Source: Erwinia psidii (lineage in GTDB: Bacteria; Pseudomonadota; Gammaproteobacteria; Enterobacterales; Enterobacteriaceae). From it: a DNA stretch of 64,000 nt. Positions within the stretch are counted from its first letter, which is position 1. Each line of letters opens with the position of its first letter. Location: contig NZ_RHHM01000008.1 of the NCBI RefSeq assembly GCF_003846135.1, forward strand, positions 124,001 to 188,000, given 5' to 3'. The position numbers and the translations under genes are program-made. Shown here in pieces: positions 17,243 through 64,000 of the stretch. Under the pieces are notes generated by a model. That model worked only from the letters and a program-made list of their open reading frames with translations. It was not told where the DNA came from and made no database searches.

Positions 17243-17521
17243 ATGCGTAAATTAAATAGTGTGGAAATTGAGTCAGTATCTGGTGCATGGATTTTTTCAG
17301 ATATTGGCTCATCTGTTGGCTTTGTTGTGGGTTCCATAATCAACAAAGGTGCATCCGATGGAGGTATTACCATTGACTCGACCACTGCTTCCGCACAGAT
17401 TGGTTCAGGCCTTGGTAAAATTATCGAACTGAACCTTTCCGGCGCAATAAGCGATCTTGGCAAAGGGATTGTAGGTTGGCTGGCTATTGCTTCCAGTGCT
17501 AAAGATCAGGCTTCTGCTTAA
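17243..17521 (+). CDS. Small double-glycine-leader peptide, possible class II microcin/bacteriocin
   Basis: A 92-residue protein I do not recognise by name. The first 15 residues, MRKLNSVEIESVSGA, have the shape of a double-glycine-type leader (Leu4, Glu8, Val12, then Ser-Gly-Ala; compare the colicin V leader). The remaining 77 residues are hydrophobic and glycine-rich, with GxxxG spacings at 22-26, 26-30 and 54-58 and near 73-78, typical of pore-forming class II bacteriocins. There are no cysteines. A near-consensus promoter, AAGGGG ribosome binding site and downstream terminator make it a monocistronic, expressed-looking unit. No peptidase-transporter or immunity gene lies next to it, which is the main doubt. 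Confidence 0.6.
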   Translation: MRKLNSVEIESVSGAWIFSDIGSSVGFVVGSIINKGASDGGITIDSTTASAQIGSGLGKIIELNLSGAISDLGKGIVGWLAIASSAKDQASA

Positions 17522-44645: not shown

Positions 44646-46556
44646 TTGAGATTTCCTAACCAACGCCTTGCCCAGCTGTTTGCCATGTTGCAAAACGAAA
44701 GTTTACCTCAGGATGAGCTGGCGCGACGCCTGGCTGTCTCCACACGCACCGTACGCACGGATATCACCACGCTGAATGAGCTACTGGCTGACTATGGCGT
44801 ACGTTTCGTGCTGAATCGTGGCACAGGCTATCAAATCCATATTCAGGACGCCATTCGCTACCGGCAGTTGCAGCAGCAGTCGCCCTCGCATTTGCGCGTG
44901 CCACGTACTTCGGCTGCACGGGTTCAGTATCTGTTAACGCGTTTTCTCACGTCTGCCTTTTCGTTAAAACTTGAAGATCTGGCTGATGAGTGGTTTGTCA
45001 GCCGCGCCACATTACAGGGAGATATGGCTGAAGTGAGGGAGTGGCTGGCGCGTTATCAGTTGGTCATTGAAACCCGACCGCGCTATGGCATGAAACTGTT
45101 TGGCCGTGAGGTGGCGGTGCGTACCTGCCTGACTGAGTTGCTTTACCAGATTGCGCAGGAGGATGCAGACGATCCATTGCTCCGGCTTGAAGCACTGAAC
45201 GGCGGGATGCTTGAAACGTTACAACCTCTGTTAAATCAGTGTTTCACCCGCTGCAATATTCGCCTTAACGATGACAGTGAATTTTACCTGCGGCTCTATT
45301 GCGCCGTGGCGGTGCGGCGCATCAGTGAGGGCTATCCACTGTCTGATTTCAGTGCAGACGACGTTGATGATGATGTGCGAGATGCGGCCCGACACATTAT
45401 CAACCTGATGCAGCCTGTCACCGGGAAGATAATCTCCCCGGCAGAGGAAGCCTACCTGCGGGTGAATATTGCTGCCCGTCGGGTGCTGGATATTGCGCCA
45501 AGCGCCATCAACCCGGATGACGGTGAGTCACTGGTGATTTACATCCTAAGTTATATCAACAGCCACTATAACTTTGATCTGCAGGGCGATGCGCAATTAC
45601 GCGCCGATCTGCTCACGCATATCAAAACCATGATCACCCGTGTACGTTATCAGATAAATATTCCCAATCCGCTGTTGGCGAATATTAAACAGCATTACCC
45701 GATGGCATGGGATGTGACGCTGGCAGCGGTTTCCAGCTGGGGAAAGTACACGCCTTATATCATCAGCGAGAACGAAATTGGTTTCCTGGTGCTGCATATC
45801 GGCGTTGGCCTGGAGCGTCACTATAATGTTGGTTACCAGCGTCACCCTAAAATACTGCTGGTGTGCGACACCGGGAATTCAACCGTACGGATGATCCAGG
45901 CGATGCTGTTGCGTAAGTATCCACAGGTGGTGGTCAGTCACATTGTGTCGCTGCGTGATTATGAACAGCAGGAGAATATTGAAGAGGATTTTGTGATCTC
46001 CACGGCGCGGTTAATTGAGAAAAATAAGCCGGTGGTCGTTATGTCTCCCTTCCCGACGGAGTATCAGCTGGAACAGATAGGTAAACAGGTGCTGGTGGAC
46101 CGCACGCGGCCCTATATGCTGGAGAAATTTTTTGATGCCGGCCACTTCCGCATCATTGACAGGCCAGTAAGGCAAACGGACCTTTTTCGTCTCCTCTGCG
46201 ATCAGCTGGAAGCAGAAGGGGTGGTGGATATTGATTTCTGTCCTTCTGTTGAGGAGCGTGAGGCGATAGTCAGCACCATGTTGGGAGAAGGTATCGCGTT
46301 GCCGCACTCTCTGGGATTGCTGGCGAAGAAAAGTGTGGTCTACACCGTACTTGCTCCACAAGGAATAGTCTGGGGGGACGAAACGGCATATGTGATTTTC
46401 CTGCTGGCAATCAGTAAAACCGAATACGAAGAAGCAATGGCGATTTACGATCTGTTTGTCACTTTTATGCGCGAAAGGGCAATGGTCAGACTGCGGGACA
46501 GTACGGATTTCTTAAGCTTTAAGGCTGTCGCGCTGGACTGCCTCAGCCGGATATAA
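44646..46556 (+). CDS. BglG/MtlR-type PRD transcriptional activator
   Basis: A 636-residue multidomain regulator: HTH_11 (about 4-60), Mga-like HTH (about 85-165), two PRD domains (about 170-400), an EIIB-like domain with Cys407 in LLVCDTGNSTVRM, and an EIIA-like domain with His554 in GIALPHSLG. Phosphorylation by phosphotransferase components normally controls such activators. It lies 67 bp after the lactonase gene on the same strand and most likely controls the cluster upstream. The start is TTG 44646 after AGGA. No phosphotransferase permease is in the cluster. Confidence 0.85.
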   Translation: MRFPNQRLAQLFAMLQNESLPQDELARRLAVSTRTVRTDITTLNELLADYGVRFVLNRGTGYQIHIQDAIRYRQLQQQSPSHLRVPRTSAARVQYLLTRFLTSAFSLKLEDLADEWFVSRATLQGDMAEVREWLARYQLVIETRPRYGMKLFGREVAVRTCLTELLYQIAQEDADDPLLRLEALNGGMLETLQPLLNQCFTRCNIRLNDDSEFYLRLYCAVAVRRISEGYPLSDFSADDVDDDVRDAARHIINLMQPVTGKIISPAEEAYLRVNIAARRVLDIAPSAINPDDGESLVIYILSYINSHYNFDLQGDAQLRADLLTHIKTMITRVRYQINIPNPLLANIKQHYPMAWDVTLAAVSSWGKYTPYIISENEIGFLVLHIGVGLERHYNVGYQRHPKILLVCDTGNSTVRMIQAMLLRKYPQVVVSHIVSLRDYEQQENIEEDFVISTARLIEKNKPVVVMSPFPTEYQLEQIGKQVLVDRTRPYMLEKFFDAGHFRIIDRPVRQTDLFRLLCDQLEAEGVVDIDFCPSVEEREAIVSTMLGEGIALPHSLGLLAKKSVVYTVLAPQGIVWGDETAYVIFLLAISKTEYEEAMAIYDLFVTFMRERAMVRLRDSTDFLSFKAVALDCLSRI

Positions 46557-46773
46557 AAAGCGATATGAGCCAGAAGCTGGTTTATTGCTTATATCAGATG
46601 CACACATTCTTAATGTGCTGAATAAGATAATGCACTATCTTAAGTGGAGTGAAATTTCATTTTTCTTCTCTTTTTAATTTACCTCTCTACAGGACTCTGC
46701 CAGAGTTCCACTTTTGTTATTCCATTAATACCTTTGTGAAAAGTTTGGTAAAATTAAATACTGAGAAGTATAG

Positions 46774-47846
46774 TTGTTTTTTTCTTTTAAAGCATCCGCC
46801 CACTATGATGATGCTTATTTCCATAGTGCCAATGATCCGTTTACGTATAAAAATAAATGGATGGCCGATATCAGGGATAATGTTCGGCTTAACGAGATGG
46901 CATTACCAGGAACGCATGACAGTGGAACTTATAAACGGTGGGAGCCGATGGTTGGCACACAGGTACTAACGATCCGAAAACAGTTGGATTATGGCATCCT
47001 GGTTCTGGATATCAGGATTAGACATACGGGTAACAAATTTGCACTTCATCATGGTAAAGTCTTTCTCAATATAATGTTTGATGATGTACTTAACCAGATA
47101 GAAAATTTTCTAAAGGAAAATCCAACGGAAACCGTCCTTTTTCGCCTGAAAGAGGATTGCCCGGCAAACAATAATAACACCCAAAAAATGTCGAAAACGC
47201 TGACGGACTATCTGGCAAAATCGCCCAGATACCTGAATACCTCCAACAGTGGCATTACGATGGGGGAGGCAAGAGGGAAATATATTATTCTGACAGATAA
47301 TTATAATTTCCGGGGATACCCTGGGTAAGGGCCATTACTCAGGATAACTATTTGATCGGGACAAACTGGGATCTTCACTGGAAATGGATGACAGTCAAAG
47401 AGCATCTTGATAAAGCGATAAATGGTTACAGCGATACTTTTTACATCAATCATCTTTCAGCATCTGGTGGATCATTCCCTTATTTTGTTGCAAGTGGACG
47501 TATATCAGCAGGCACATCTTCATCCCGTCTGGCTACCGGCCTGACGACGCCAGGCTGGAAAAACACTTACCCTTATTTTCCACGTGTTAATTTTTTTATC
47601 GGTATCTGTACCATTGCATTCGAAGGAACCAATATTCTTGCCCGTAATGAAACCAGAAAAATAAATGCGATAATTAAATTATCAAATATAATTAACAGTG
47701 TGCCTGTGAATATTTCAGTCAATAAAAAAGAGACTGTGAAAATAATGGTTGGTATTATTATGGCCGACTTTCCCGGAGAGTCATTGATTCAGGAAATAAT
47801 AAAAAATAACGTTAAATTAAAAAATAGCCCTGAAATTAACGGATAA
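46774..47846 (+). pseudogene. Frameshifted phosphatidylinositol-specific phospholipase C-like gene
   Basis: The first part (46774-47328) contains PI-PLC X-domain features: the first catalytic His in ALPGTHDSGTYKRW and the second in FALHHGK, with VLDIRIRH between. The frame ends at TAA 47326-47328. The rest continues in another frame from about 47319 (PWVRAITQDNYLIGTNWD...) to 47846, so one base appears lost in a C/G run near 47319. The N-terminus is also damaged: a TAG lies just before the first possible start and the expected signal peptide is not in frame. DNA is AT-rich, unlike the flanks. Confidence 0.75.
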
Positions 47847-47967
47847 TTAGATAAAGTCTGCTGAAGGAAAATACACTTTCATTATTTTATTTTTTTATCA
47901 GATATCCGTAACTGGCTTCTCCGGCTACGAATTTTTTGTCTAAAGAACCTCTTCAGCCAGTTATTAA

Positions 47968-48464
47968 CCCCCTTTTGATTTGTTAAAACACCTTGCGATT
48001 TGGCAATGGCAAGAATCAAACAAGAAATCAAAAAGGGGGACCAATGGGTGACGAAAAGCGCCTGACGCACACCCGATGGAACGGTAACTATCACATAGTT
48101 TTTGCTCCGAAGTACCGAAGACAGGTATTTTACGGTGAAAAACGCAGAACAACAGGCAGCATATTAAGAAAACTGTGTAAATGGAAAAGCGTGAACATTC
48201 TGCAGGCGAGTTAATATCCATATGCTTGTGGAGAGCCTGCTGAAGATGAGTATGTCGGGATTAATAAGGTATCTGAAAGGGAAGAGTAGCCTGATGCTTT
48301 ATGAGCCGTTTGGTTATCTGAAATTCAAATACAGGAACAGGGAATTCTGGTGCAAAGGATATGACGCCTACACGGTAGGTAAGAACGCAGGGAAGATCCG
48401 GGAACACATAAAACACCCGCTGGAGCAGGATAAACTAACAGTTATCAATCCCGTATCCGGGTAG
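47968..48464 (+). mobile_element. Decayed IS200 (IS200/IS605 family)
   Basis: The left part has an inverted repeat, CCCCCTTTTGATTT (47968-47981) against AAATCAAAAAGGGGG (48025-48039), which matches the terminator-like hairpin at the left end of IS200. The transposase remnant follows. Exact element ends are not determined, since this family has no terminal inverted repeats or target duplication. Confidence 0.8.
48044..48464 (+). pseudogene. tnpA: Inactivated IS200 transposase TnpA
   Basis: The first 56 codons (MGDEKRLTHTRWNGNYHIVF...) match IS200 TnpA, then TAA at 48212-48214. The remainder (48222-48464) runs in another frame with LIRYLKGKSSLMLYE, FKYRNREFWCKGYDAYTVGK. The metal-binding HUH motif is broken: where HIHM is expected the sequence reads NIHM. 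The catalytic-tyrosine region is altered too (YDAYTVGKNAGKI). It cannot be active. Confidence 0.88.
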
Positions 48465-48545
48465 CCTGTTTACGGGCCGTAAGTAATCCAGAGATGCAAA
48501 TGTCAGATAGCAAAGCGCTGCTGGCAGGAGAGCCTTATGGCAGTG

Positions 48546-48569
48546 AAAAACCTCCGGCTATACCGGAGG
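48546..48569 (-). terminator. Terminator of the dolP transcription unit
   Basis: On the minus strand CCTCCGG-5 nt-CCGGAGG followed by five T residues, about 42 bp after the dolP stop codon. Confidence 0.88.
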
Positions 48570-48610
48570 ATATTTATTACGGCCAGCTGATATTGGCCTG
48601 AGCCCGACGA

Positions 48611-49183
48611 CTACTTCAGAATAGTGAACGCCGTGGTAACATGCTTCACGCCATTTACCCGACTGGCAATGTCGGCAGCTGCTTTGCCTTCTGCATCCGT
48701 TACCAGACCCAGCAGGAACACTTCACCATTTTCGGTGGTCACCTTCACATTGGATGATTTCACCTGGTCGCTTGCTAACAGCTGTGAGCGGACCTTGGTG
48801 GTAATCCATGTATCGGAAGACGCAGTGCCAAAGCTGGCTTTATCGGTGGTACGGATCTCATTATAGACTTCGGTAGCACCGTCAACGCCCAGGGTAATTT
48901 GTTTGGCGCGGCTGGCAATGGTGGCGTCAGGTGCCTGGCCAGTTAACAACACTTTTCCCTGGTAGGCGGTAGCGACAATGTGTGCATCCGTTTTGATCTG
49001 CTGATCTTTGGACAGCGCGTTGCTGACACGCAGTTCAAGCGTACCATCGTCCACCTGTGTGCCTACCGTCCGGGGATCGGAGGCGGTCTTGGTTGCCACT
49101 GCGGCACTGCCAATAACGGCTGCCACACAGCCCTGTAACATCAGCGCGGTAAACACCACGGCAATAGTGGGTAATGCCTTCAT
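48611..49183 (-). CDS. dolP: Outer membrane lipoprotein DolP (YraP)
   Basis: A 190-residue lipoprotein with a lipobox LQGC (Cys19) and two BON domains (about 47-115 and 124-190). It contributes to outer membrane integrity and division-site amidase control in E. coli. VDDGTLELRVSNALSKDQQI and DTWITTKVRSQLLASDQVKS are nearly as in E. coli. It lies 11 bp after diaA, likely in one operon. Confidence 0.95.
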   Translation of the reverse strand: MKALPTIAVVFTALMLQGCVAAVIGSAAVATKTASDPRTVGTQVDDGTLELRVSNALSKDQQIKTDAHIVATAYQGKVLLTGQAPDATIASRAKQITLGVDGATEVYNEIRTTDKASFGTASSDTWITTKVRSQLLASDQVKSSNVKVTTENGEVFLLGLVTDAEGKAAADIASRVNGVKHVTTAFTILK

Positions 49184-54330: not shown

Positions 54331-55008
54331 TCAGTATTCGCTGTCAGTGATGACAAACTCACAATACATACCGGGATGGTAATGATTTTGATTTTGTGAC
54401 GCAGCGCTGCGTAGCACTCTGAGCTTTAAAACAGTGTTGCGATCCTGAAAAATATCCGCATCGGAGTCACCATAATATATAGCGATCTTATTCCTTTTAA
54501 TAAAATAATCTTTGTTTCTTTTTACACCATTAATATAAGACTTGAATATAACAACATTCCTTTTGTAAAAAGGAATGTTAAAATCATCTGCCAGTCGAGA
54601 GCTTAATTTTTCCGTGGTAGTGCGCGGGCGATCGGTAATAAAATAGATGTTATCATCTCTTTTCAGGTGATAATTAATTATCTTTTGCATCGATTCTTTC
54701 TTCTTTGAGTAAACCAGCAGGCCATTGTTGACCTGCTGCCAGAAATTGGCATTGTGTGACCATGCATCGCTGTTTACTGAAAAAATAGCTTTACCCAGTA
54801 CAAAAGAAGGCGTCGAGAAAAGCAGTGTATCATCCACATCGAATCCCACATTCTGAGGCTCAGGAAATTTTGAATTTATAACGGAGCTAATCTCTTTGGA
54901 TGTGTAAAATTGCTTAATATTACACCGAGAGTTCTGAGCTGAAGAAGAAAAGGAAAGTACAATGAGAACGGCAGTAGTTAAGATAGCTCTAGGTTCTGTA
55001 TTAAACAC
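54331..55008 (-). CDS. Exported class B acid phosphatase (AphA-like)
   Basis: A 225-residue HAD-superfamily phosphatase. A hydrophobic signal segment (about 8-24) precedes the mature part. The nucleophile and acid/base aspartates are in GFDVDDTLLFSTPSF (Asp57 and Asp59), FITDRPRT supplies motif II and YGDSDADI motif III; it ends in NSEY-like TDSEY as E. coli AphA does. It is distant from E. coli AphA, and is the last gene of the cluster, overlapping the preceding gene by 31 bp. The start is GTG. In this context it may dephosphorylate the cluster's product in the periplasm (inference). Confidence 0.8.
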   Translation of the reverse strand: MFNTEPRAILTTAVLIVLSFSSSAQNSRCNIKQFYTSKEISSVINSKFPEPQNVGFDVDDTLLFSTPSFVLGKAIFSVNSDAWSHNANFWQQVNNGLLVYSKKKESMQKIINYHLKRDDNIYFITDRPRTTTEKLSSRLADDFNIPFYKRNVVIFKSYINGVKRNKDYFIKRNKIAIYYGDSDADIFQDRNTVLKLRVLRSAASQNQNHYHPGMYCEFVITDSEY

Positions 55009-55505
55009 TCAAGTTCTCTCTTCGATTTGATATAGTAAACGGGCGCGCTTATGTCTTCCAACTGATCTTTAATTCTTGCCAACCGGCCAGAATGGGTAGC
55101 TAATATAAAGCGTAAAAATTCCATATCTATCTTGTCCGGGCAGCCTTCTGGTAAATCTTTACGCACGCCGCCATTTTTTGCTCTGCGGGCAACGACACGC
55201 CATAAGCTTTTCCACTTTCCAGCCAGAACAACGATGACCAGATCAGCCTGCAACGCACGCTGCCTGAGGGAACCTATATAACCACCTTCAATAATCCATG
55301 ATGAATTATTAATAATCTCACTTTGACGCTGGAGAAATTCGTTTTCGGTGACGGATTGCCAGTTGGATTGCCAGAAAATACGGTCAAGATGAAATAATGG
55401 TAAGCCGGTTTTTTGATGCAGATGCAGCGCCATGTAGGTTTTTCCGCTGCCGGGAGAGTTCCCCGTAATTACCACGCGCTTGATACTATGTGGTGAAGAA
55501 TTCAT
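54978..55505 (-). CDS. Adenylate-kinase-like P-loop protein (FlaR type)
   Basis: A 175-residue P-loop kinase-like protein. Walker A is GNSPGSGKT (15-23); LFHLDRIFWQSNW and WIIEGGYIGSLRQRAL are typical of the group annotated as DNA topology modulation protein FlaR or adenylate-kinase-like. The lid is short with several Arg (RVVARRAKNGGVRKDLPEG). Substrate is unknown. It overlaps the upstream Nudix gene by 4 bp and the phosphatase gene by 31 bp. Confidence 0.78.
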   Translation of the reverse strand: MNSSPHSIKRVVITGNSPGSGKTYMALHLHQKTGLPLFHLDRIFWQSNWQSVTENEFLQRQSEIINNSSWIIEGGYIGSLRQRALQADLVIVVLAGKWKSLWRVVARRAKNGGVRKDLPEGCPDKIDMEFLRFILATHSGRLARIKDQLEDISAPVYYIKSKRELECLIQNLELS

Positions 55506-55927
55506 GACGGTTCTTTCCTGTAATACGCCAGATTATTCAGTAAGAACTGTCGCAGAGGTTCAGGTTGTAACGGCAGATCGATCAACTCTGACATGCTCAC
55601 CCAGCGGCATTGTCGCGCAATATGATCTTCATGGTTAATCACATCGCCAGTACAGGATGAATTAAAAATAACCATTGTTTCATTGTAAAAACAATCATCA
55701 ATATTAAAATGATTTTCAATCATTCCACGAAAGGTGATATCCGTCAGTTTAAGGCTCAGTTCTTCATAAATTTCACGCTTTGCAGCATCATACCAGGATT
55801 CACCCGTTTCCTTTTTACCGCCGGGGAGTATCCAGTAATCGTCACTATTTTCTTTGATAAAAAGAAAGTCGCCACGATCATTTTTGAGTAAAACGCAGCT
55901 GCGATTTTTCTCTTTATACAATTTCAT
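55502..55927 (-). CDS. Nudix hydrolase
   Basis: A 141-residue Nudix protein. The Nudix box GKKETGESWYDAAKREIYEE fits Gx5Ex7REUxEE from Gly37, though the final Gly is replaced by Ser58. It would hydrolyse a nucleoside diphosphate linked to another moiety; the substrate cannot be told. The gene overlaps both neighbours by 4 bp, so it is co-translated with the two kinase-like genes. Confidence 0.85.
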   Translation of the reverse strand: MKLYKEKNRSCVLLKNDRGDFLFIKENSDDYWILPGGKKETGESWYDAAKREIYEELSLKLTDITFRGMIENHFNIDDCFYNETMVIFNSSCTGDVINHEDHIARQCRWVSMSELIDLPLQPEPLRQFLLNNLAYYRKEPS

Positions 55928-56460
55928 TTTTTACTCCTGATGGTGTCGATGAGTTGCACCAGTTTAGCCAAAGAATTTTCTGTGAACAAAGAAGAATTAA
56001 AGGAATAGGCTGGCACCTGTCTGAAGTAACCATTCTGACAAACCCATTCATATAATGACTTCATTTTAACTATATTTTCTTTCCGCATCCAGGGAGAAGG
56101 ATCAGAGTGACACGACATTGAAGGAAAACTGATATTATCCTGAGCATCGGTAAAAACAATGATTGCATCAATCGAAGAGAGGTATTCGGAACAAAAAAAC
56201 GGGCGTGGCTCAACCTGGTCAACCACCCATGTGGAAAGTGGTGAGCGATCAATCAGACAGTGATGGCCTTTTTTCCGTTGTTCCAGCGCCGCAAGATGCT
56301 TGTAGTAATCATTAAGCTGAGCACTCTGGCCATCGGTCACATCGACAATCGTCTCCGGTATATAGTGACGACAGAAACCGCTGTGCAACAGAGCCTTGAG
56401 TGCAGACGTCTTACCAGTGAATGGCATTCCCTCAAAGGCGATCGAGGTAATCTGTGACAT
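55924..56460 (-). CDS. P-loop nucleoside/nucleotide-kinase-like protein
   Basis: A 178-residue P-loop protein. Walker A is EGMPFTGKTS (10-19); CLIDRSPLSTWVVDQ (about 68-82) resembles the DRSP/DRS motif of deoxynucleoside and thymidylate kinases. The lid region is not obvious. Substrate is unknown. It overlaps the HPr-kinase-like gene by 29 bp and the Nudix gene by 4 bp. Confidence 0.72.
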   Translation of the reverse strand: MSQITSIAFEGMPFTGKTSALKALLHSGFCRHYIPETIVDVTDGQSAQLNDYYKHLAALEQRKKGHHCLIDRSPLSTWVVDQVEPRPFFCSEYLSSIDAIIVFTDAQDNISFPSMSCHSDPSPWMRKENIVKMKSLYEWVCQNGYFRQVPAYSFNSSLFTENSLAKLVQLIDTIRSKK

Positions 56461-57508
56461 AAGAAAGTCCGTTATAGGGGTTAAAATCTAAGCTGTGACA
56501 CGGCAAGCCGTGCAGAACATTTGTGGTTGATGGCCCGGAAGAAGGGTTTCCGAAGAGAGACTCTGGATAATCCGTGTCGCGCACCGAAAAGAAGTTTGCG
56601 TTCAGTAGCGCAGAGTGGGATGACAGCTGAGAAGGCTGAATAGAGCCGGAGCAGCCTGGATCCGAGCGTCGACTGAATACGATTAAATCCACGCGGGAGT
56701 GATCGATAATCTGTGCATCAAAGATATAATTCATTTCAGCCGGTGTGAGTTCGAATTTTTTTTTGTTGCCCCAGTAATCTCCTTTCTGGTCTATTTCACT
56801 AAGAAAATTTTTAACACTACCTGAACGGTCGGAAACCAGTTTCGACAGTCGCTGATTATCCATGTTCCTCAATAACCCACCGCCAACGCGAAATGATGTC
56901 ACATGAGGCCAGGCTGCGGGTTTTCCTTTGGCATCATGGCCAATAAATAATTTGTCGTTGGAAAGCACTTTACCGCCCGCGCCCGCCAGATGCAGGGTCA
57001 GGGAAGTCTTACCGGCGCCAGAATCTCCCACGATAAGAATGCCTTTATTCCTGTAGTTCACCAGTGCAGCGTGATAACACTTTCGATCGGATAAATAGTG
57101 AATATCAGCGATCAAAGCACGTAGAAAACGGATGACGTAGATAGACTTCGCCAGCGATGAAATGAAAATTGAAAAGCTGCATTTTGGATGAGGGAAGTTA
57201 ACATCGATGTGATAGCAATAATCAGGTGCTTCTGAACCAATGATGTAAGCTTTGCCATTCTTGCACTTTTTCTGGATAAGTTTGATATCATTTTTGTAAT
57301 TAATGGTTTTATGATTATTGAATTGAGTGATTTTTTTTAGGTGTTCAGGGTCAACTGAAACATTAATATTAAATTCCCGATTATGATTATTGAAAGGCGG
57401 AGGGGAATCACTGGCGGCAGGATAGTAATTCTTAACTACGGATCTAATTTCAGAGCGACAGTTTATAATAATAATATTCTTACGATCGATAGGTAAAAAT
57501 AGCGTCAT
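56432..57508 (-). CDS. HPr-kinase-related protein
   Basis: A 358-residue protein with a C-terminal domain like HPr kinase. Walker A is GDSGAGKT (161-168) after KGILIV; KVLSNDKLFIG (180-190) corresponds to the strand with the conserved acidic residue. The N-terminal 140 residues are unrelated to bacterial HprK and may recognise the substrate. Related kinases occur in peptide and polysaccharide clusters, where they phosphorylate a product or precursor rather than HPr. It overlaps the upstream phosphotransferase gene by 4 bp. Confidence 0.72.
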   Translation of the reverse strand: MTLFLPIDRKNIIIINCRSEIRSVVKNYYPAASDSPPPFNNHNREFNINVSVDPEHLKKITQFNNHKTINYKNDIKLIQKKCKNGKAYIIGSEAPDYCYHIDVNFPHPKCSFSIFISSLAKSIYVIRFLRALIADIHYLSDRKCYHAALVNYRNKGILIVGDSGAGKTSLTLHLAGAGGKVLSNDKLFIGHDAKGKPAAWPHVTSFRVGGGLLRNMDNQRLSKLVSDRSGSVKNFLSEIDQKGDYWGNKKKFELTPAEMNYIFDAQIIDHSRVDLIVFSRRSDPGCSGSIQPSQLSSHSALLNANFFSVRDTDYPESLFGNPSSGPSTTNVLHGLPCHSLDFNPYNGLSYVTDYLDRL

Positions 57509-58476
57509 TTATGATTCCATGTCAAATGATAGGTTTGTGGATTAATCACCCGGTTAAGCGCAATTATGCTAATAAGTAAAAATTCCTGTAGCCAGCTACG
57601 TTGGTAATGGAAGGGAAGTACACCTGCCAGTAGTAATGCTCCAGAGATATAACTCAGCCATCCACCCGCCGTTTTTTGCCTGAAGTAATCCAGGGTTTTA
57701 TTCAGGTTATAATGGTTATTTTCTTGCTGCAAATACCACTTTTTACCATCGTAAAATGACCGGAACTTCCCGGAGACAATGTTTGAGTACTCAAAAAAAA
57801 CATCGTGAATGATTTTTCCTTCATCATAGAGAGGAGAAAACCATGCGTTGGAGTTAATAAATCTGCCGCGTGGATCTATAAGTTTAACATCTTTACCATT
57901 TGTCATTATATTCCCGGCATGGGGATCTCCATGACAAAGAATGGCCTTTTGCGGTGACGCCAGCAGAGTGCAATGGCCTGATATAATATGCTCAATACGC
58001 TGTAGGCATGACATTATGCTGAGATAGGCATTATCGTTTATTACCACGCTGTCATATGTCAACTTATTGATCAGTGGATTTTTTCCACAGTATGACATGA
58101 TGCGATTACTTGTTTGCTTAAATAAATAGGTCAGCCATTCCCGCTGTGAGAGCACCACGTTACTTTTAAAGCTGTGCATTTCATCGAATATCTTATCTAT
58201 GGCATGACAATAAATTGTATTATTATCACTGCAACAATCAGGATAGGTAGAAAACCGATCAAGCAGACTTGAGTAATCAACAAGCCTTTCAATCGAGAGG
58301 CTTAGGCTATCATTTTCCTGAGATGATGCGTAATATTTTGGGAAAAAACTAAACTTGTCGCTATGCGTCCTATACCAGTATATTTCATCCAATGCTTTCT
58401 GACGAAGATGGCAAGGCCATGTTTTGATAAAGTGTTTGCCAACTAAACTATACGCAGCGCCGGAAGCTCCATTCAT
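57505..58476 (-). CDS. APH/choline-kinase-family phosphotransferase
   Basis: A 323-residue protein-kinase-fold small-molecule kinase. The catalytic loop is LCHGDPHAGNIM (HGDPHAGN at 182-189) and the metal-binding Asp201 lies in LIDPRGR. A C-terminal hydrophobic stretch (about 275-300) is unusual. The frame is open to 58566, but ATG 58476 has AGGTGAG just upstream and lies 4 bp after the preceding stop. Adjacent to a nucleotidyltransferase, it resembles AmgK/MurU or LicA/LicC pairs, in which a small molecule is phosphorylated and then nucleotidylated. Confidence 0.8.
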   Translation of the reverse strand: MNGASGAAYSLVGKHFIKTWPCHLRQKALDEIYWYRTHSDKFSFFPKYYASSQENDSLSLSIERLVDYSSLLDRFSTYPDCCSDNNTIYCHAIDKIFDEMHSFKSNVVLSQREWLTYLFKQTSNRIMSYCGKNPLINKLTYDSVVINDNAYLSIMSCLQRIEHIISGHCTLLASPQKAILCHGDPHAGNIMTNGKDVKLIDPRGRFINSNAWFSPLYDEGKIIHDVFFEYSNIVSGKFRSFYDGKKWYLQQENNHYNLNKTLDYFRQKTAGGWLSYISGALLLAGVLPFHYQRSWLQEFLLISIIALNRVINPQTYHLTWNHK

Positions 58477-58480
58477 ATTC

Positions 58481-59200
58481 TCACCTGTTGATATGAGAGT
58501 GGTATTGCTCTGGTGTACCAAGAATAATTGTCTGGTTTTCGTTGTAGATAGTGTGCGCGAATACATCGTTATTTTTGATTATCGCTTCTTCTATTACCTG
58601 ACTGATATACTTTTCATCGTTATAGAATGAAGAAGTATAATAAAGTTCTTTATAGAAAGAACCTGATGAAAATCCATACAGACCACTTGAAGCATAATTC
58701 GATATGACTTCTTTTTCTTTTATTTCCGTTATTGAGTCACCATGCTTTTTTGCATAACTGAAGTTGCTGGTTTTAATTTTAGGTTCAAAAAGATCAACAT
58801 AACAAGCCCGGCCTGAATACAATCTTTCTCCAATATCATTGAAATCGCGCTGCTTTATTATTGTGTCATTATTCATAATAATGATCGGGCGGTCGTTGTC
58901 GATTTGGCTTATGGCAATGAATGCAGTTTCAGCTTGCCCAGTTGTATCGCTGTTATAATTCAGAGTGAAACCACAGGGTAATGTAATTTTTTCAATAACT
59001 GATAGTGTCTCCTGTTCAAACTTACGGTATTTTGTATTGAAAAGAAAGTGGATATTTGATTCTTCTGGGAGGGTAATAGCTTCCAGTATGTGTTCAAGAA
59101 TTGTTCTGTTATCATTTAATTTCAGAAGAAACTTAGGCCTTGTGAAACCTTTATCAGTAAACCGTACCCCGTTACCACAGAATGTGAATATAAAGTTCAT
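58481..59200 (-). CDS. Small-molecule nucleotidyltransferase
   Basis: A 239-residue protein with the GT-A-like fold of sugar-phosphate and choline-phosphate nucleotidyltransferases. The nucleotide loop is CGNGVRFTDKGFTRPKFLLK (8-27), GQAET at 88-92 contacts the base or sugar, and MNNDT (109-113) supplies the metal-binding Asp112. It probably makes an NDP-activated molecule from the product of the adjacent kinase. It lies 2 bp after the glycosyltransferase gene. Confidence 0.75.
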   Translation of the reverse strand: MNFIFTFCGNGVRFTDKGFTRPKFLLKLNDNRTILEHILEAITLPEESNIHFLFNTKYRKFEQETLSVIEKITLPCGFTLNYNSDTTGQAETAFIAISQIDNDRPIIIMNNDTIIKQRDFNDIGERLYSGRACYVDLFEPKIKTSNFSYAKKHGDSITEIKEKEVISNYASSGLYGFSSGSFYKELYYTSSFYNDEKYISQVIEEAIIKNNDVFAHTIYNENQTIILGTPEQYHSHINR

Positions 59201-59202
59201 TT

Positions 59203-60390
59203 TTAACGCTCGGTAGAGTAGTTTTTAACGTATCTGTCGTTCACAGTTAAAAAATAGCTTAATGTGATAGCTTGCAAGACAGGCCGGCTAAAGGGAGAAA
59301 TGATAAGATGAAGTAACGTCATGCCCGGCGTGGGGAATGTTATGATCTTCCTGAAGTAGCTGATAATAAAAATTTGAATACAGAATTCAGCTAACCAGTA
59401 AGCTAAAACATAAAAACCATTCATCCTCATGGCTGAAAAAATAACCGTGAGGAGGAAAACAAAGAGTGAAAGAAAATTGGTCGAGTATGTTACCAATTTG
59501 GTTGTTGCGGTATAGGCTTTTGAGCCGGGTATATCATGAAAAACGCGTTTGAGAGATAACACTCCCAGCATAATTTTGGAGTATTGCTTTAAGTATGAAC
59601 CGAAGGCGTTGACCGGCGTCATCGTGGGATATTCCATTATTGTTTTTCTACGAACTGTCAGCAGGTCGAGCCGATAGCCCAGCTCGATGTCATCAGAATA
59701 TTTGGGAAATCCGCCTGTCCTGTCCAGCGCGGTGCTCCTGATAAGTAAGCAAGCTCCCATGCCCAAACGCAGGTAATACTTCCACTTAAAATGGTTGAGA
59801 AAGCTCTCAACAAATAACACACGGTAGAGATGGTTTAATACGCTCAGAGATGAAAACCATCCCATTCCCGGCGCGGCAGTGGTGACGGGGATCGCCTGGA
59901 TCATTTCTGTGCCTTGTCCGGCGCGAGTTTCTGCTATGGCCCGTTCAATCAACGTCGGTGAGGGTCTGGCATCAAAATCAAAAACAAATATCCAGAATGG
60001 CTGGGGGCTGTTAGCTTTAATTTCGCTGTAAATGCGATTAAGTTTCTCCTGCTTGGATTGGCTCAATCTATCGTGTTTCAATGTGATTGGATATGCCTCT
60101 TGCAGACGTTGAATGCATTTATATGTGCTATTTTCACCTGTTTCCGGTGAGGTGATAATTACCAGCTCACATTGCTGTGAATATGGCTTTATCAGTTCGT
60201 AGTAATACGAGACAGTTTCCTCTGCAATCTTTGCCTCATTTAAGGCTGGTAAAATAAACCAAATTTTTTGAGAAGAGCCCTGCTGCAAAACAGAAGGCGA
60301 ACCGGATCTCTTTAGCTTGTACCATGTCAATATCAATGCAATGGCTCTGATAATAAAAAATGTAATTACAATGATGTAAAATAAATCCAT
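59203..60390 (-). CDS. Membrane-bound family 2 glycosyltransferase
   Basis: A 395-residue GT2 protein. TM1 is at about 3-22. The catalytic GT-A domain has FILPALNEAKIAEETV (45-60), the DxD motif FVFDFDA (135-141) and an acid-pair motif YSDDIELGYRLDLL (231-244). Three to four hydrophobic segments follow (about 308-385). Such enzymes transfer a sugar or sugar-like group from an NDP donor at the inner membrane. It lies 2 bp before the nucleotidyltransferase gene, which may supply its donor. Confidence 0.78.
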   Translation of the reverse strand: MDLFYIIVITFFIIRAIALILTWYKLKRSGSPSVLQQGSSQKIWFILPALNEAKIAEETVSYYYELIKPYSQQCELVIITSPETGENSTYKCIQRLQEAYPITLKHDRLSQSKQEKLNRIYSEIKANSPQPFWIFVFDFDARPSPTLIERAIAETRAGQGTEMIQAIPVTTAAPGMGWFSSLSVLNHLYRVLFVESFLNHFKWKYYLRLGMGACLLIRSTALDRTGGFPKYSDDIELGYRLDLLTVRRKTIMEYPTMTPVNAFGSYLKQYSKIMLGVLSLKRVFHDIPGSKAYTATTKLVTYSTNFLSLFVFLLTVIFSAMRMNGFYVLAYWLAEFCIQIFIISYFRKIITFPTPGMTLLHLIISPFSRPVLQAITLSYFLTVNDRYVKNYSTER

Positions 60391-60455
60391 CTGATAATAT
60401 TCCTTTTGAAATAAAGAATTTGATGGCGGTTGAAGTATGTCGTGAGTTGGCTGTT

Positions 60456-61466
60456 TTAACGTTCTAAAGTGAGTGAGTTAAATACTTCTTTATAATTTTT
60501 ATGTGATGTGAACATCAGATTGACAAAGCTACCGGTTGCCTTACAGAGCTTGCCTTTATGCTCAATAAAAGCATGCTGGCTGGCTATGCTGTCCAGATGC
60601 AGCTCGCGTTCACACAGCGCTGAGCAGAGCTGAGTTAACATCTGGCAGAGAGTATGTGTCTCTTTATCGAGCTTATCACAGTTGATATTTAAGCGATTAA
60701 GCAACATGACATCGATCACAGAGGTCAGATAAGGCGGCCTTTTTTGCAATGAAGTGAGGAAAACGCATTCGCGGTACAAATGAAGCAGGGTATGTAAGTA
60801 GTTATAATAGGGATCCAGGCACGATATGCCGCTTATCTCAGCCGTTTTGCGCAATATTTCTTCTGTGCATAGTGGGTCCTGTTTCGTCGCCCAGCTGAGC
60901 GTAAAGGCAATATCGATGACGATCGGTATTCCGTCGACTACTTTAACATAGTGCGGTAGATGGTCCGGGCTCATACGGTATTTGAGTAGCGTTTCAGGTT
61001 TGTGCGCGTGCACAGTGCGCGTTTGATGGTGATAAAACCCACAGGTAAAGCCCGCCTCGGCCAGCAGTGATTTCATGTTATTTGCACTGGATACATCAAT
61101 CAACAGATCCACGTCGTTTGAAGTACGATGGCTGGGGTGGTGGTAGAGCGCTGCCAGCGACTTTCCCTTTCGCAATGCATAATGAATTTTTTCCTGTTTC
61201 ATCATTTTCGTCAACGCAGCCAGTTCGCTGTCAGCAAAAATCTGTTTCTTTTCAAGATGTGAACAGTAACTGGCAATGAGCTCACAATCTTTATAGCCTA
61301 CTTCTTTGAACAGGTTCTGCTGATGGATAACATAGTTTAACAGCGGCAATAACTTATGCTGATTCAGGAAGGAGATATCAATGTCCCTGCTGTTTTCAAA
61401 TGATTCATTATAAAAGTAAGCATTATATAATTCTCTGAAAAGAGTTAACTTGCTCTGGCCTGACAT
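60456..61466 (-). CDS. NTP_transf_5-like nucleotidyltransferase family protein
   Basis: A 336-residue protein resembling the uncharacterised nucleotidyltransferase family PF14907. LRKGKSLAALYHHP (98-111) and RTSNDVDLLID (114-124), with the paired aspartates Asp118 and Asp120, are the pol-beta-type signature. The helical C-terminus has no other motif. Members often sit next to HPr-kinase-related genes in peptide or polysaccharide clusters; here that partner lies four genes downstream. Function is unknown. Confidence 0.68.
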   Translation of the reverse strand: MSGQSKLTLFRELYNAYFYNESFENSRDIDISFLNQHKLLPLLNYVIHQQNLFKEVGYKDCELIASYCSHLEKKQIFADSELAALTKMMKQEKIHYALRKGKSLAALYHHPSHRTSNDVDLLIDVSSANNMKSLLAEAGFTCGFYHHQTRTVHAHKPETLLKYRMSPDHLPHYVKVVDGIPIVIDIAFTLSWATKQDPLCTEEILRKTAEISGISCLDPYYNYLHTLLHLYRECVFLTSLQKRPPYLTSVIDVMLLNRLNINCDKLDKETHTLCQMLTQLCSALCERELHLDSIASQHAFIEHKGKLCKATGSFVNLMFTSHKNYKEVFNSLTLER

Positions 61467-61485
61467 ATCAGCCTCCTGGCTACTC

Positions 61486-62649
61486 TCAATTTATAATTTC
61501 GCTAATTTTGGCCTTGCCATGAAATCCGTTAAGTGACGCGTTGCTACAGTAAGCACCCAGATTGTCACAGTGTAATACGGTGCCTACGCTGATAGCGTGC
61601 GCGGAAAGCGTTGCATAGCCCAGCATATCGAGAGCAGTACAACTGGAGCCATACACCCGGCAGCGGATGGTCGGCGTGTGAATCGCCTCTGATGCACCAT
61701 GATAAAATTCGAGATCGGGCTCTTTTAATCTACGCAGCAGATAAAGGCCGGCTATTTGCGCAATACCACTGTTAATCACTACATAGGGGTTGGCAGAGTT
61801 GAGATTGTGGTCGAGCACCGTGCAGCTGAGCCTGCCAGCGCTGCCTGTCACCGCTCTGCCACTTTCAAAAAGCAGTGAAACCGGCGGAAGGTGGCTCTCA
61901 GCGATGACTTTTTCCAACTCTTCTGAGAGGTTATGAGCGGAAGTAAACGTCTGCGTTTTCATCTTCTGGCCATAGGGAGCAGGAAATCCACCGCCAACGT
62001 TTAGCATGTGGATTTGTGCAACAAAATCAGGGTCAACTCTTTTAATTTCTTCAACTGCACAGCGCAGGGTTTCACTTAGCTGATTCATGTCGGAAATTTG
62101 TGAACCAATATAGAGATGAAACCCGGCTACTCTCTGTTTTTCTCCGGGCTGAGCTCTGGATAGTAGCGTGTTAATCGTTTCTGCTGTCATGCCAAAAGGG
62201 CTATCCGGCAGCCCGTTAAAAATTCCGTAGCGGACAGAAGGAAAGTATGACAGTCGAAACAGGCCCTCAACATCGATACCCTGCTCTGTAAGCTGGCAGA
62301 AAAAGAGAAAATCATTAGGTGATTCAATAGAATAAATCAGGTTATGCTTTGTTGCGGCATCGCGCAGCGCTGACAGCGGTATGGAAATTTTATCGTTACC
62401 TGTGAGGCAGAGAGTTCTTTTTTTGCCGACATAACTGCTGATTAATGCCAGCTCTTCTTGCGATGCGATATCAAAGCCGTCCACCGTGTGACTGAGAAAT
62501 TTTATTAATTCTGGATTGTTATTTGCTTTCAATGAATAGAGAATTTGACTGCTATCAGGTAACACCTTCCTAAGGTGGTTAACATTATCGTTTAGCTTTT
62601 CAGTTTTATACTCAATATACGCCTCTGTTATGCTATTCACTGAAGGCAT
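61486..62649 (-). CDS. Fold-type-III PLP decarboxylase, probably acting on a carrier-bound amino acid
   Basis: A 387-residue alanine-racemase-fold PLP decarboxylase of the ornithine/diaminopimelate group. The PLP lysine is Lys41 (LYSLKANNNP); GSQISD (182-187), NVGGGFPAPY (217-226) and ESGRAV (262-267) bind PLP phosphate and pyridine nitrogen; Cys337 in YGSSCTALDML and DNLGAYC (362-368) complete the active site across the dimer. It overlaps the carrier protein gene by 17 bp. BtrK (butirosin) and VinO (vicenistatin) are relatives that decarboxylate aminoacyl-carrier proteins, so the same role is likely here. Confidence 0.83.
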   Translation of the reverse strand: MPSVNSITEAYIEYKTEKLNDNVNHLRKVLPDSSQILYSLKANNNPELIKFLSHTVDGFDIASQEELALISSYVGKKRTLCLTGNDKISIPLSALRDAATKHNLIYSIESPNDFLFFCQLTEQGIDVEGLFRLSYFPSVRYGIFNGLPDSPFGMTAETINTLLSRAQPGEKQRVAGFHLYIGSQISDMNQLSETLRCAVEEIKRVDPDFVAQIHMLNVGGGFPAPYGQKMKTQTFTSAHNLSEELEKVIAESHLPPVSLLFESGRAVTGSAGRLSCTVLDHNLNSANPYVVINSGIAQIAGLYLLRRLKEPDLEFYHGASEAIHTPTIRCRVYGSSCTALDMLGYATLSAHAISVGTVLHCDNLGAYCSNASLNGFHGKAKISEIIN

Positions 62650-62860
62650 TTATGATCTCCCCAAAGGTAAAATCTTCAGAAATCATCTTTTCTAACTTAT
62701 CTTCCGGTAAGATCTTTCCGCTGTTAGCTTCAAGCTCTACAATCAGCCCAACCAGTAATAGAGAATCAAGGCCCGCGTCATAGACATTCATCGTTAGTAA
62801 ATCATTATTATACTGATGTCCAGTGTTGCGTTCTACAAAAGTATTTATGATATCAATCAT
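62633..62860 (-). CDS. Acyl/aminoacyl carrier protein
   Basis: A 75-residue phosphopantetheine-binding protein. The prosthetic group attaches to Ser33 in DAGLDSLLLVGLI (28-40), a variant of the usual DSL motif; the four-helix pattern and length are typical. It overlaps the dehydrogenase-like gene by 8 bp and the decarboxylase gene by 17 bp, so the three proteins are made together. No phosphopantetheinyl transferase is in the window. Confidence 0.87.
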   Translation of the reverse strand: MIDIINTFVERNTGHQYNNDLLTMNVYDAGLDSLLLVGLIVELEANSGKILPEDKLEKMISEDFTFGEIINAFSE

Positions 62861-63914
62861 TTTTATCTCGCTTGAATTTTTTCAGGATTTGTAATGTTTC
62901 GATGTTAATCTTATTTAAATCAGCATTGTTAAACATGAGCGGAGCAGATAATAAATCGGTATAGGCCTGTTGAAACCAGTTGTTTTCCTCTCGTTTCTGA
63001 TAGCCTTCTTTAAATCCCAGTATATCCAGCATAATTTTCATTCCGCTACATACATTCTCTGCAATGATTATTTTTGCTGAGTTATTATGAATGTGCTGCT
63101 CAAGTACATCAGTGATTTTTTCTTTATTTAAAGCAGGGAAGTGGTGTTCAAGACGCTCGATCAGGCATGAATTAATGAGATCTATATTTATTACCTGTTG
63201 CATTTTTTCATAATGGTAAAATTTATATTCTTTTACGGTACGCCTTACATAGTGCAATGCCCGATTGAACATAGCTGCCCAGGATATTCCCCAGTAAAGA
63301 TGAGCATAAAAGGCCAACACATTGTTCGACAGATTCAGATTATGATCGTCTATGATATAGCAAGATTTCTTCTGAACGCTGAATTCTACCCTCTCAATTC
63401 TATTTCCTGTCATACCCCAGGTCTCAATCGTCTCCTCTTTTTCAATATGCAGATCGTTCTTATGGCAAAAAACGATTGAATTTTTAGTGCCTACCAACCC
63501 AGTAAAGATGAGATGAGTGGCTTCAGCGAAATAACTTACACAGGGGCAATTTCTGGTCAGAAGTTCAGCATTAGCTTCAAGGCATACTCTGCTGTTCAGG
63601 CTCGCCCCTTTTACTGAGGTTGTTGCCGATGCAATTAATCCCGTGTGTTTCAGGCTGCTGATGGAGGACATTTTGAGCACATTTACAGCTTGCATATGCT
63701 GGCTGAAGGTCACTGCAAGAGAAAGCGAGACGGCTGTCAACTGCTCAATTATTGACCGGATGTCTTTATGTCCGAATTCATTTTTTAAATACAGGTCATT
63801 GAAATGACTCTCACATAGCCGACGGGACAGTTCGTCAATGTTTTTAGATTGAATAATAAACTCTACTAAATTAACTTCATGTTGAAAATTTACTGATAAT
63901 TCTGGATTCTTCAT
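62853..63914 (-). CDS. Acyl-CoA-dehydrogenase-like protein
   Basis: A 353-residue protein with the general layout of acyl-CoA dehydrogenases: a helical N-domain with AVSLSLAVTFSQHMQAVNVL (61-80), a beta domain with TGLIASATTSVKGASL (91-106) and ETWGMTGNRIERVEF (164-178), and a helical C-domain. Sequence divergence is large and I cannot see the catalytic Glu or the full FAD-binding motif, so the activity is uncertain. Next to a carrier protein it may oxidise a carrier-bound acyl or amino acyl group. Confidence 0.6.
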   Translation of the reverse strand: MKNPELSVNFQHEVNLVEFIIQSKNIDELSRRLCESHFNDLYLKNEFGHKDIRSIIEQLTAVSLSLAVTFSQHMQAVNVLKMSSISSLKHTGLIASATTSVKGASLNSRVCLEANAELLTRNCPCVSYFAEATHLIFTGLVGTKNSIVFCHKNDLHIEKEETIETWGMTGNRIERVEFSVQKKSCYIIDDHNLNLSNNVLAFYAHLYWGISWAAMFNRALHYVRRTVKEYKFYHYEKMQQVINIDLINSCLIERLEHHFPALNKEKITDVLEQHIHNNSAKIIIAENVCSGMKIMLDILGFKEGYQKREENNWFQQAYTDLLSAPLMFNNADLNKINIETLQILKKFKRDKND

Positions 63915-64000
63915 GGAGGTTTTCCATCAGCTGAGAAATGTGAGGCGCAAGATTGAAATTTTTCTCTTTAATAGCCATCTGATTTATAGATACCGAGAGA
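63877..64000 (-). CDS. C-terminal end of an upstream cluster gene
   Basis: The minus strand is open from the window edge (first full codon 63999) to TGA at 63879-63877, giving 40 residues that end ENLHEESRIISKFST. It overlaps the dehydrogenase-like gene by 38 bp, so it belongs to the same operon. The segment is too short to identify; a loading enzyme for the carrier protein would be expected somewhere upstream. Confidence 0.55.
   Translation of the reverse strand, partial: LSVSINQMAIKEKNFNLAPHISQLMENLHEESRIISKFST

Follow-up and report, generated by a model that had tools for sequence, protein, structure and literature searches.

The end of a 64,000-nucleotide stretch of Erwinia psidii DNA (the window, from contig C40 of the 4.5-Mb genome) holds most of a minus-strand operon of 17 genes. 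In this operon a putative β-amino-acid cassette of the bolagladin/vicenistatin type stands together with a 32-amino-acid (aa) precursor-like open reading frame (ORF), which carries a double-glycine (GG) leader, and with an exporter bearing a C39 peptidase domain. We propose, with a probability of about 0.55, that the operon makes a ribosomal/non-ribosomal hybrid: an aspartate-derived β-aminoacyl unit would be joined to the tripeptide borne by the leader, decorated, cut after the GG and exported. If so, a ribosomal leader peptide would bring a tripeptide to carrier-protein chemistry, two usually separate systems thereby meeting, and the invariant GG-(M/L)KA tail, with the eight elements shared between cluster types, would offer a search signature and a small enzyme set. 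Such clusters are easily missed, because the precursor has only 32 aa and a tail of three residues.

Organisation and conservation of the operon

Within the window the run at 54331-63914 comprises twelve complete ORFs, and a thirteenth, from 63877, is cut by the window end (all operon genes lie on the minus strand). At the 12 junctions among these 13 ORFs we measured eight overlaps of 4-38 bp, three intergenic gaps of 2, 19 and 65 bp and one overlap of 86 bp, the latter between the APH-like ORF and the adjacent one, assuming the longest start. Apart from the 86-bp overlap, an earlier note made from the window alone had described the same tight packing; the protein families that it named were recovered by Pfam or NCBIfam matches, the dehydrogenase-like enzyme only by profile, and its remark on AT-richness is borne out by a G+C of 40.9% for the whole operon versus 52.2% for window positions 1-53560. 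A second AT-rich stretch (G+C 0.41-0.43) is found at window positions 46001-49000. In the sequence extended past the window end (L002; window coordinate = L002 + 52000) the operon goes on for about 4.8 kb, the 32-aa ORF being its first cistron; this part holds what that note had missed, i.e. the precursor-like peptide, the C39 exporter, the ligase and most of a 291-aa protein called P291 hereafter.

The gene content, order and conservation of the operon are established by comparison with other Erwinia. All 17 genes recur in the same order in Erwinia oleae DAPP-PG531 (genome G1035), on two contigs, with ratios of non-synonymous to synonymous substitution rates (dN/dS) of 0.08-0.39 (16 genes in one comparison, the exporter computed separately, and the family 2 glycosyltransferase, GT2, on 325 of its 395 residues). 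Given this conservation, the gene set is more than a chance assembly. A third Erwinia, G1034, has on one contig a diverged cluster with other tailoring genes, which shares eight elements with that of E. psidii: the 32-aa ORF, the ligase, P291, the dehydrogenase, the carrier, the decarboxylase, an NTP_transf_5 protein and the C39 peptidase. This recurrence, full or partial, in two other Erwinia supports the idea, put forward in the earlier note, of one biosynthetic operon; it is the test that the note itself had named.

The two E. oleae contigs each end inside the GT2 gene, with about 200 bp per end (L015:12653-12852 and L024:11157-11365) unmatched in the source genome. By eye they resemble opposite termini of an IS3-type element; the contigs would then be neighbours, because their ends look like those of one insertion element, and the E. 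oleae GT2 gene is probably interrupted by it. The remaining 16 genes are whole on one or the other contig.

A putative β-amino-acid cassette

The same note knew of no pathway with such a set of genes, and no recognised product. The second point stands; the first holds only in part, as four of the genes are best read, from their sequences, as a bolagladin/vicenistatin-type cassette: a VinN-like AMP (adenosine monophosphate) ligase (L002:12752-14104), a stand-alone carrier protein (62633-62860), a BtrK-like type III pyridoxal phosphate (PLP) decarboxylase (61486-62649) and a diverged acyl-CoA-dehydrogenase-like enzyme (62853-63914).

The top PDB match of the ligase is VinN (3wvn, E 2.9e-27), and its specificity positions are conserved. 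In VinN, Asp230 recognises the α-amino group of the substrate while Ser299 and Arg331 recognise its α-carboxyl group, as given in an excerpt of PMC7756342. Ligase residues D177, T246 and R278 align with these three positions (the chain numbering being taken as shifted by a constant 16 from the published one, by our own count), threonine replacing serine. The D/T/R positions and a TECKR motif are present in all seven ligases compared, i.e. those of E. psidii, E. oleae, G1034, two Streptomyces, Paenibacillus and Rhizobium. The decarboxylase is closest to BtrK among solved structures (2j66, E 1.9e-14), and its PLP-lysine and C-terminal motifs (SLKAN, SCTALD and DNLGAY) are in place. The carrier protein, with its DSL serine motif at residue 32, matches PF00550 with 21.6 bits (cut-off 20.8).

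The dehydrogenase-like enzyme gave no Pfam or NCBIfam match of its own, and only chance-level matches to solved structures. By profile, it matches acyl-CoA dehydrogenases, and hhalign aligned it with the cassette dehydrogenases of two Streptomyces plasmids (E 1.2e-10, probability 97%, and E 5.2e-8); a second dehydrogenase of one of these plasmids, L032, does not match it. Both plasmids, L032 and L035, have the order ligase-decarboxylase-carrier-dehydrogenase, the decarboxylase being annotated as alanine racemase in one. Besides, an unassigned protein is encoded ahead of the ligase in both, in L032 with a C-terminal carrier domain.

For bolagladin (Burkholderia gladioli), the four corresponding proteins BolO, BolC, BolN and BolQ are proposed to load aspartate, decarboxylate and desaturate it, and deletion of bolQ gave β-alanine analogues, according to the excerpted text (PMC7756342). 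From the families, the specificity residues and this precedent, the cassette of E. psidii would yield a β-alanyl or dehydro-β-alanyl thioester. The likeness extends to the specificity positions, with the Thr-for-Ser change already mentioned; on the other hand bolagladin feeds a non-ribosomal peptide synthetase (NRPS), whereas the operon revealed no NRPS module and has instead a GG-leader ORF and a C39 exporter. Vicenistatin (VinN/VinL/VinO) and butirosin (BtrJ/BtrI/BtrK) share with the operon the loading of an acid on a free carrier followed by type III PLP decarboxylation. Their units go to a polyketide synthase or an aminoglycoside, unlike those of the operon.

The best NCBIfam matches of the decarboxylase and the ligase are TIGR03099 and TIGR03098, two exosortase-A-associated families, which brings up the modification of a surface polysaccharide, a glycan receiving an acylamino group. 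The GT2 and the sugar nucleotidyltransferase of the operon would suit this explanation, as would a weak relative of the dehydrogenase found in a glycan-like cluster, directly before a DUF1839 gene (L026:8105-10344, with glycosyltransferase-like and sulfotransferase-like genes nearby, named by eye). Neither model is reached, the scores lying far below cut-off (136 versus 478 bits for the decarboxylase, 116 versus 592 for the ligase); the operon gave no polymerase or flippase match, and its GG-leader ORF and C39 exporter also speak against glycan modification. We regard this explanation as improbable.

The 32-aa ORF and the C39 exporter

The first cistron (L002:16716-16814) encodes MHFNDELELNETHEAVELTQEEMMAIAGGMKA, which ends in AIAGG-MKA, i.e. 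a double-glycine leader followed by three residues only. A ribosome-binding sequence, ACGGAG, stands ahead of the ORF, and two stops and then a hairpin come after it. Its length is 32 aa in the three genomes, the GG and the last KA are invariant, and the tail is GG-MKA in E. psidii and E. oleae, GG-LKA in G1034. Between E. psidii and E. oleae we counted 5.0 synonymous changes over 18.3 sites and 3.0 non-synonymous over 74.7 sites, giving a dN/dS of 0.12, which is rough because the changes are so few. The peptide is 66% identical to the G1034 copy over its whole length, versus 33-47% for six shared proteins (NTP_transf_5, ligase, P291, dehydrogenase, carrier and decarboxylase) and 29% for the C39 domain. 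The hairpin 3' of the stop is found at the same place in the three genomes (z -1.97, -2.87 and -3.84), with a sequence in G1034 unlike the other two.

A profile made from the three peptides finds one good match per genome in all three, the sole other match having an E of 3; in one draw of the family it matched only the E. psidii genome, none of the 211 others (1/212), G1034 and G1035 presumably not being drawn. No RNA family was found around the ORF, and a simple promoter scan gave no minus-strand match upstream of it. The leader and the conservation suggest that the 32-aa peptide acts as a precursor.

The exporter (L002:14126-16174; PF03412, PF00664 and PF00005) is a C39-peptidase ATP-binding cassette (ABC) protein, whose start was taken as MMRKKI, the longer frame being interrupted by a stop in E. 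oleae. Its dN/dS versus E. oleae is 0.082 (682 codons), and the C39 domain retains DCGHAC, HYVVF and IDP. A C39 peptidase is present in both cluster types, that of E. psidii and E. oleae and that of G1034.

GG leader and C39-peptidase ABC exporter are shared with class II microcins and other GG-leader peptides; the three-residue tail, the biosynthetic enzymes and the want of a visible HlyD-type adaptor in the operon are not. With only three residues after the GG, the peptide falls outside the standard class II microcins. Another explanation makes the 32-aa ORF a remnant of a longer bacteriocin gene, the exporter serving peptides encoded elsewhere. A candidate client is encoded some 9 kb past the exporter, by an ORF of 96 aa whose GG-type leader is microcin V-like (L003:13348-13638, plus strand; PF17508 below cut-off, E 0.094). 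This candidate is outside the block common to E. oleae and the source genome, and a remnant would hardly keep the same length and tail in E. oleae, and nearly the same in the G1034 cluster, where six shared proteins are only 33-47% identical, nor the low dN/dS given above. There is thus little chance that the ORF is such a relic. A relative of the microcin V-like ORF, 38% identical and with one internal stop, is present at window positions 17243-17521 (plus strand), and weaker relatives are on contigs C9, C12 and C38.

A further possibility is that the metabolite is not a peptide but, in the manner of butirosin, a β-aminoacyl unit set on a sugar or nucleotide; the 32-aa peptide would be a pearlin-like carrier of amino-acyl groups, or a co-regulated signal released unmodified. 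The butirosin-type decarboxylase and the numerous kinase, nucleotidyltransferase and glycosyltransferase genes agree with this, and the carrier-peptide logic has a precedent in an excerpt of PMC9303977. By contrast, the C39 peptidase is kept in both cluster types, and the GG stands three residues from the end, so that cleavage would free the tail with anything attached to it. Moreover, no PEARL-like (LanB) match was obtained among 16 of the 17 operon proteins (the 32-aa peptide left out, as in the other Pfam/NCBIfam scans of the operon). A non-peptide product seems to us rather unlikely, though less so than the two preceding explanations. Pearlins (TglA/TmoA) resemble the operon by a short ribosomal peptide as possible scaffold, and differ by their PEARL and by the use of aminoacyl-tRNA in place of a carrier-protein thioester.

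P291, tailoring enzymes and other genes

P291 (63877-64000 in the window, L002:11877-12752 as a whole) matches no family and is common to both cluster types. Residues C7, H111 and D131 are invariant across its three sequences; the E. psidii and E. oleae copies have no Pfam match, the G1034 copy one insignificant match. Its profile gave a single match among solved structures, 6lbu (E 0.0056 over 87 positions), which carries no clear meaning. No match was obtained with another Streptomyces neighbour gene nor with two Paenibacillus neighbours.

NTP_transf_5 (60456-61466; PF14907, 82 bits; 33% identity to the G1034 homologue) is, by BLAST, the only further enzyme common to G1034 beyond the cassette and P291. 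The other tailoring genes differ. In E. psidii they encode a sugar-phosphate nucleotidyltransferase-like protein (58481-59200; PF00483; 4evw, E 2.3e-12), the membrane GT2 (59203-60390; PF13641, hydrophobic segments near both ends) and an APH/choline-kinase-like phosphotransferase (57505-58566), with weak APH, Choline_kinase and MTRK matches and the motifs HGDPHAGN and DPRGR, whose real start may be farther downstream than that of the longest frame. They also encode an HprK-related P-loop kinase (56432-57508; GDSGAGKT; TIGR04355 37.9 bits and PF07475 26.2 bits, both below cut-off), a P-loop kinase-like protein with a weak AAA_28 match alone (55924-56460; E 0.018), a Nudix hydrolase (55502-55927; PF00293 63 bits, with a Nudix box) and a small P-loop kinase-like protein of the FlaR/DNA-topology-modulation type (54978-55505; NF005994 119 bits, below the 215 cut-off; GNSPGSGKT). 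The G1034 cluster has methyltransferase-like and second nucleotidyltransferase-like genes of its own, both below Pfam cut-off, then two PEP-utiliser-like proteins, a PALP enzyme and a Cys/Met-metabolism-like PLP protein.

The last gene encodes an AphA-like class B acid phosphatase (HAD IIIB; 54331-55008), with DVDDT at residue 57, PF03767 above cut-off and TIGR01672 at 147 bits, below its 195.8 cut-off; judged by eye from its N-terminus it is probably exported. A 158-aa membrane protein (L002:16182-16658), with one hydrophobic segment and no family above cut-off, is encoded between the precursor-like ORF and the exporter.

The clusters of the lasso peptides paeninodin and pseudomycoidin likewise combine a kinase and an annotated nucleotidyltransferase, which we take to be an HprK-like and an NTP_transf_5 protein. 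As described in PMC9266682, PadeK and PsmK act by phosphorylation, and the C-terminal Ser, once phosphorylated, receives hexoses from PsmN. Unlike these peptides, the operon lacks a C-terminal Ser, the Met/Leu-Lys-Ala tail having no Ser at all, and no lasso B (leader peptidase) or C (cyclase) match was obtained in Pfam/NCBIfam among the 16 proteins scanned. By the genes tested, lasso peptide and pearlin identities were both rejected.

Proposed pathway

The 32-aa peptide would provide, behind its double-glycine leader, the Met/Leu-Lys-Ala tail as acceptor. The VinN-like ligase would charge the stand-alone carrier with aspartate, or a relative, through the β-carboxylate; loss of the α-carboxylate by the action of the BtrK-like enzyme would leave a β-alanyl-type thioester, which the dehydrogenase-like enzyme would desaturate. 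P291 and NTP_transf_5, present in both cluster types, are candidates for joining the unit to the tripeptide, at Lys or at the C-terminal Ala. The kinases, nucleotidyltransferase, glycosyltransferase and Nudix enzyme might add a phosphate- or sugar-bearing group, and as these tailoring enzymes differ between the clusters the product would vary. The C39 domain of the exporter would cleave after the GG and the small modified peptide be exported, the AphA-like phosphatase perhaps stripping a protecting phosphate outside the cytoplasm. In other antibiotic pathways a protective cytoplasmic kinase is undone by an exported phosphatase, which is here a possibility only. The product would most likely serve as a metabolite of competition or signalling.

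The narrower proposal, i.e. a hybrid class in which a (dehydro-)β-alanyl unit is coupled to a Met/Leu-Lys-Ala acceptor by a new transferase family made of P291 and NTP_transf_5, then released by C39, is more tentative than the hybrid itself.

Several observations weigh against a hybrid product. Nothing direct ties the cassette to the peptide, and we infer the joining, its enzyme and site, and the function of the product. The tail after the GG, three residues in the three genomes, is not bacteriocin-sized and very short for a bacteriocin. The G1034 C39 protein has no ATPase domain match, no HlyD-type adaptor was found in the operon by the Pfam/NCBIfam scan of 16 of its 17 proteins, and the E. 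psidii exporter scores 400 bits with TIGR03796 (NHLM), whose cut-off of 853 is not reached. For P291, a DUF1839-like identity was rejected, hhalign giving no significant match; homology with the ligase-adjacent Streptomyces gene was not significant either, 39 of 100 column-shuffled controls scoring at least as high, and the coincidence of DC and HM motifs in a forced MAFFT alignment of the two is suggestive only. The P291 carriers in all searches are three genomes, all Erwinia. Finally, the E. oleae copy, with its GT2 probably interrupted, may not make the full product.

Distribution and mobility

Wider searches covered draws of genomes that overlap, those of family, order, class and phylum being samples of larger groups. 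Among 295 family genomes the decarboxylase was found in that of E. psidii alone, and among 369 class genomes in two, the second being a 28% match whose neighbourhood matched the decarboxylase alone; of 394 order genomes two gave a match to the dehydrogenase, E. psidii and a weak one. P291 was found in three of the 37 genus genomes, in one of 247 from the order and in three of 398 from the phylum, two of these last being weak matches with internal stops; no plasmid had it, nor, by pattern scan, any viral contig. Megablast gave no match of window positions 54331-64000 to E. coli genomes, nor of L002:9000-17100 to plasmids. A pattern-based scan of genome contigs, which reaches close relatives only, gave one locus, in E. 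oleae. PADLOC gave no defence-system match for the 10 of 17 operon proteins examined, and no publication on this gene set is among the matches listed from the open-licence literature.

The acquisition of the island by horizontal transfer, suggested by the earlier note from base composition, is supported by the sequences around it. In the source genome the island is flanked by rnpB and, at its other end, by a VapC-like ORF and an integrase-core transposase. Matches to rnpB were found in 37 of 37 genus genomes and 30 loci were compared, 29 of them from other genomes. At 13 of these 29, the sequence that lies past the island in E. psidii (about 72.6-74.7 kb) is found at most 1.5 kb from rnpB; at the other 16 no such match is present in the stretch compared. 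Three of the 29 loci (L043, L044 and L053) have sequence like window 45.3-46.6 kb, and the remainder neither neighbour in the stretch compared, the side downstream of rnpB being variable in Erwinia.

E. oleae is among the 13 loci, and its copy of the cluster therefore lies elsewhere. The two copies are similar in nucleotide sequence over a block bounded by a point shortly after the phosphatase stop and another about 420 bp upstream of the precursor, and the similarity is lost beyond both; the E. oleae flanks carry a TraG-like gene, an integrase-core transposase and a phage-type integrase. An Rce1-like CAAX protease gene (L024:4252-4923) adjoins the end of the E. oleae cluster, outside the conserved block.

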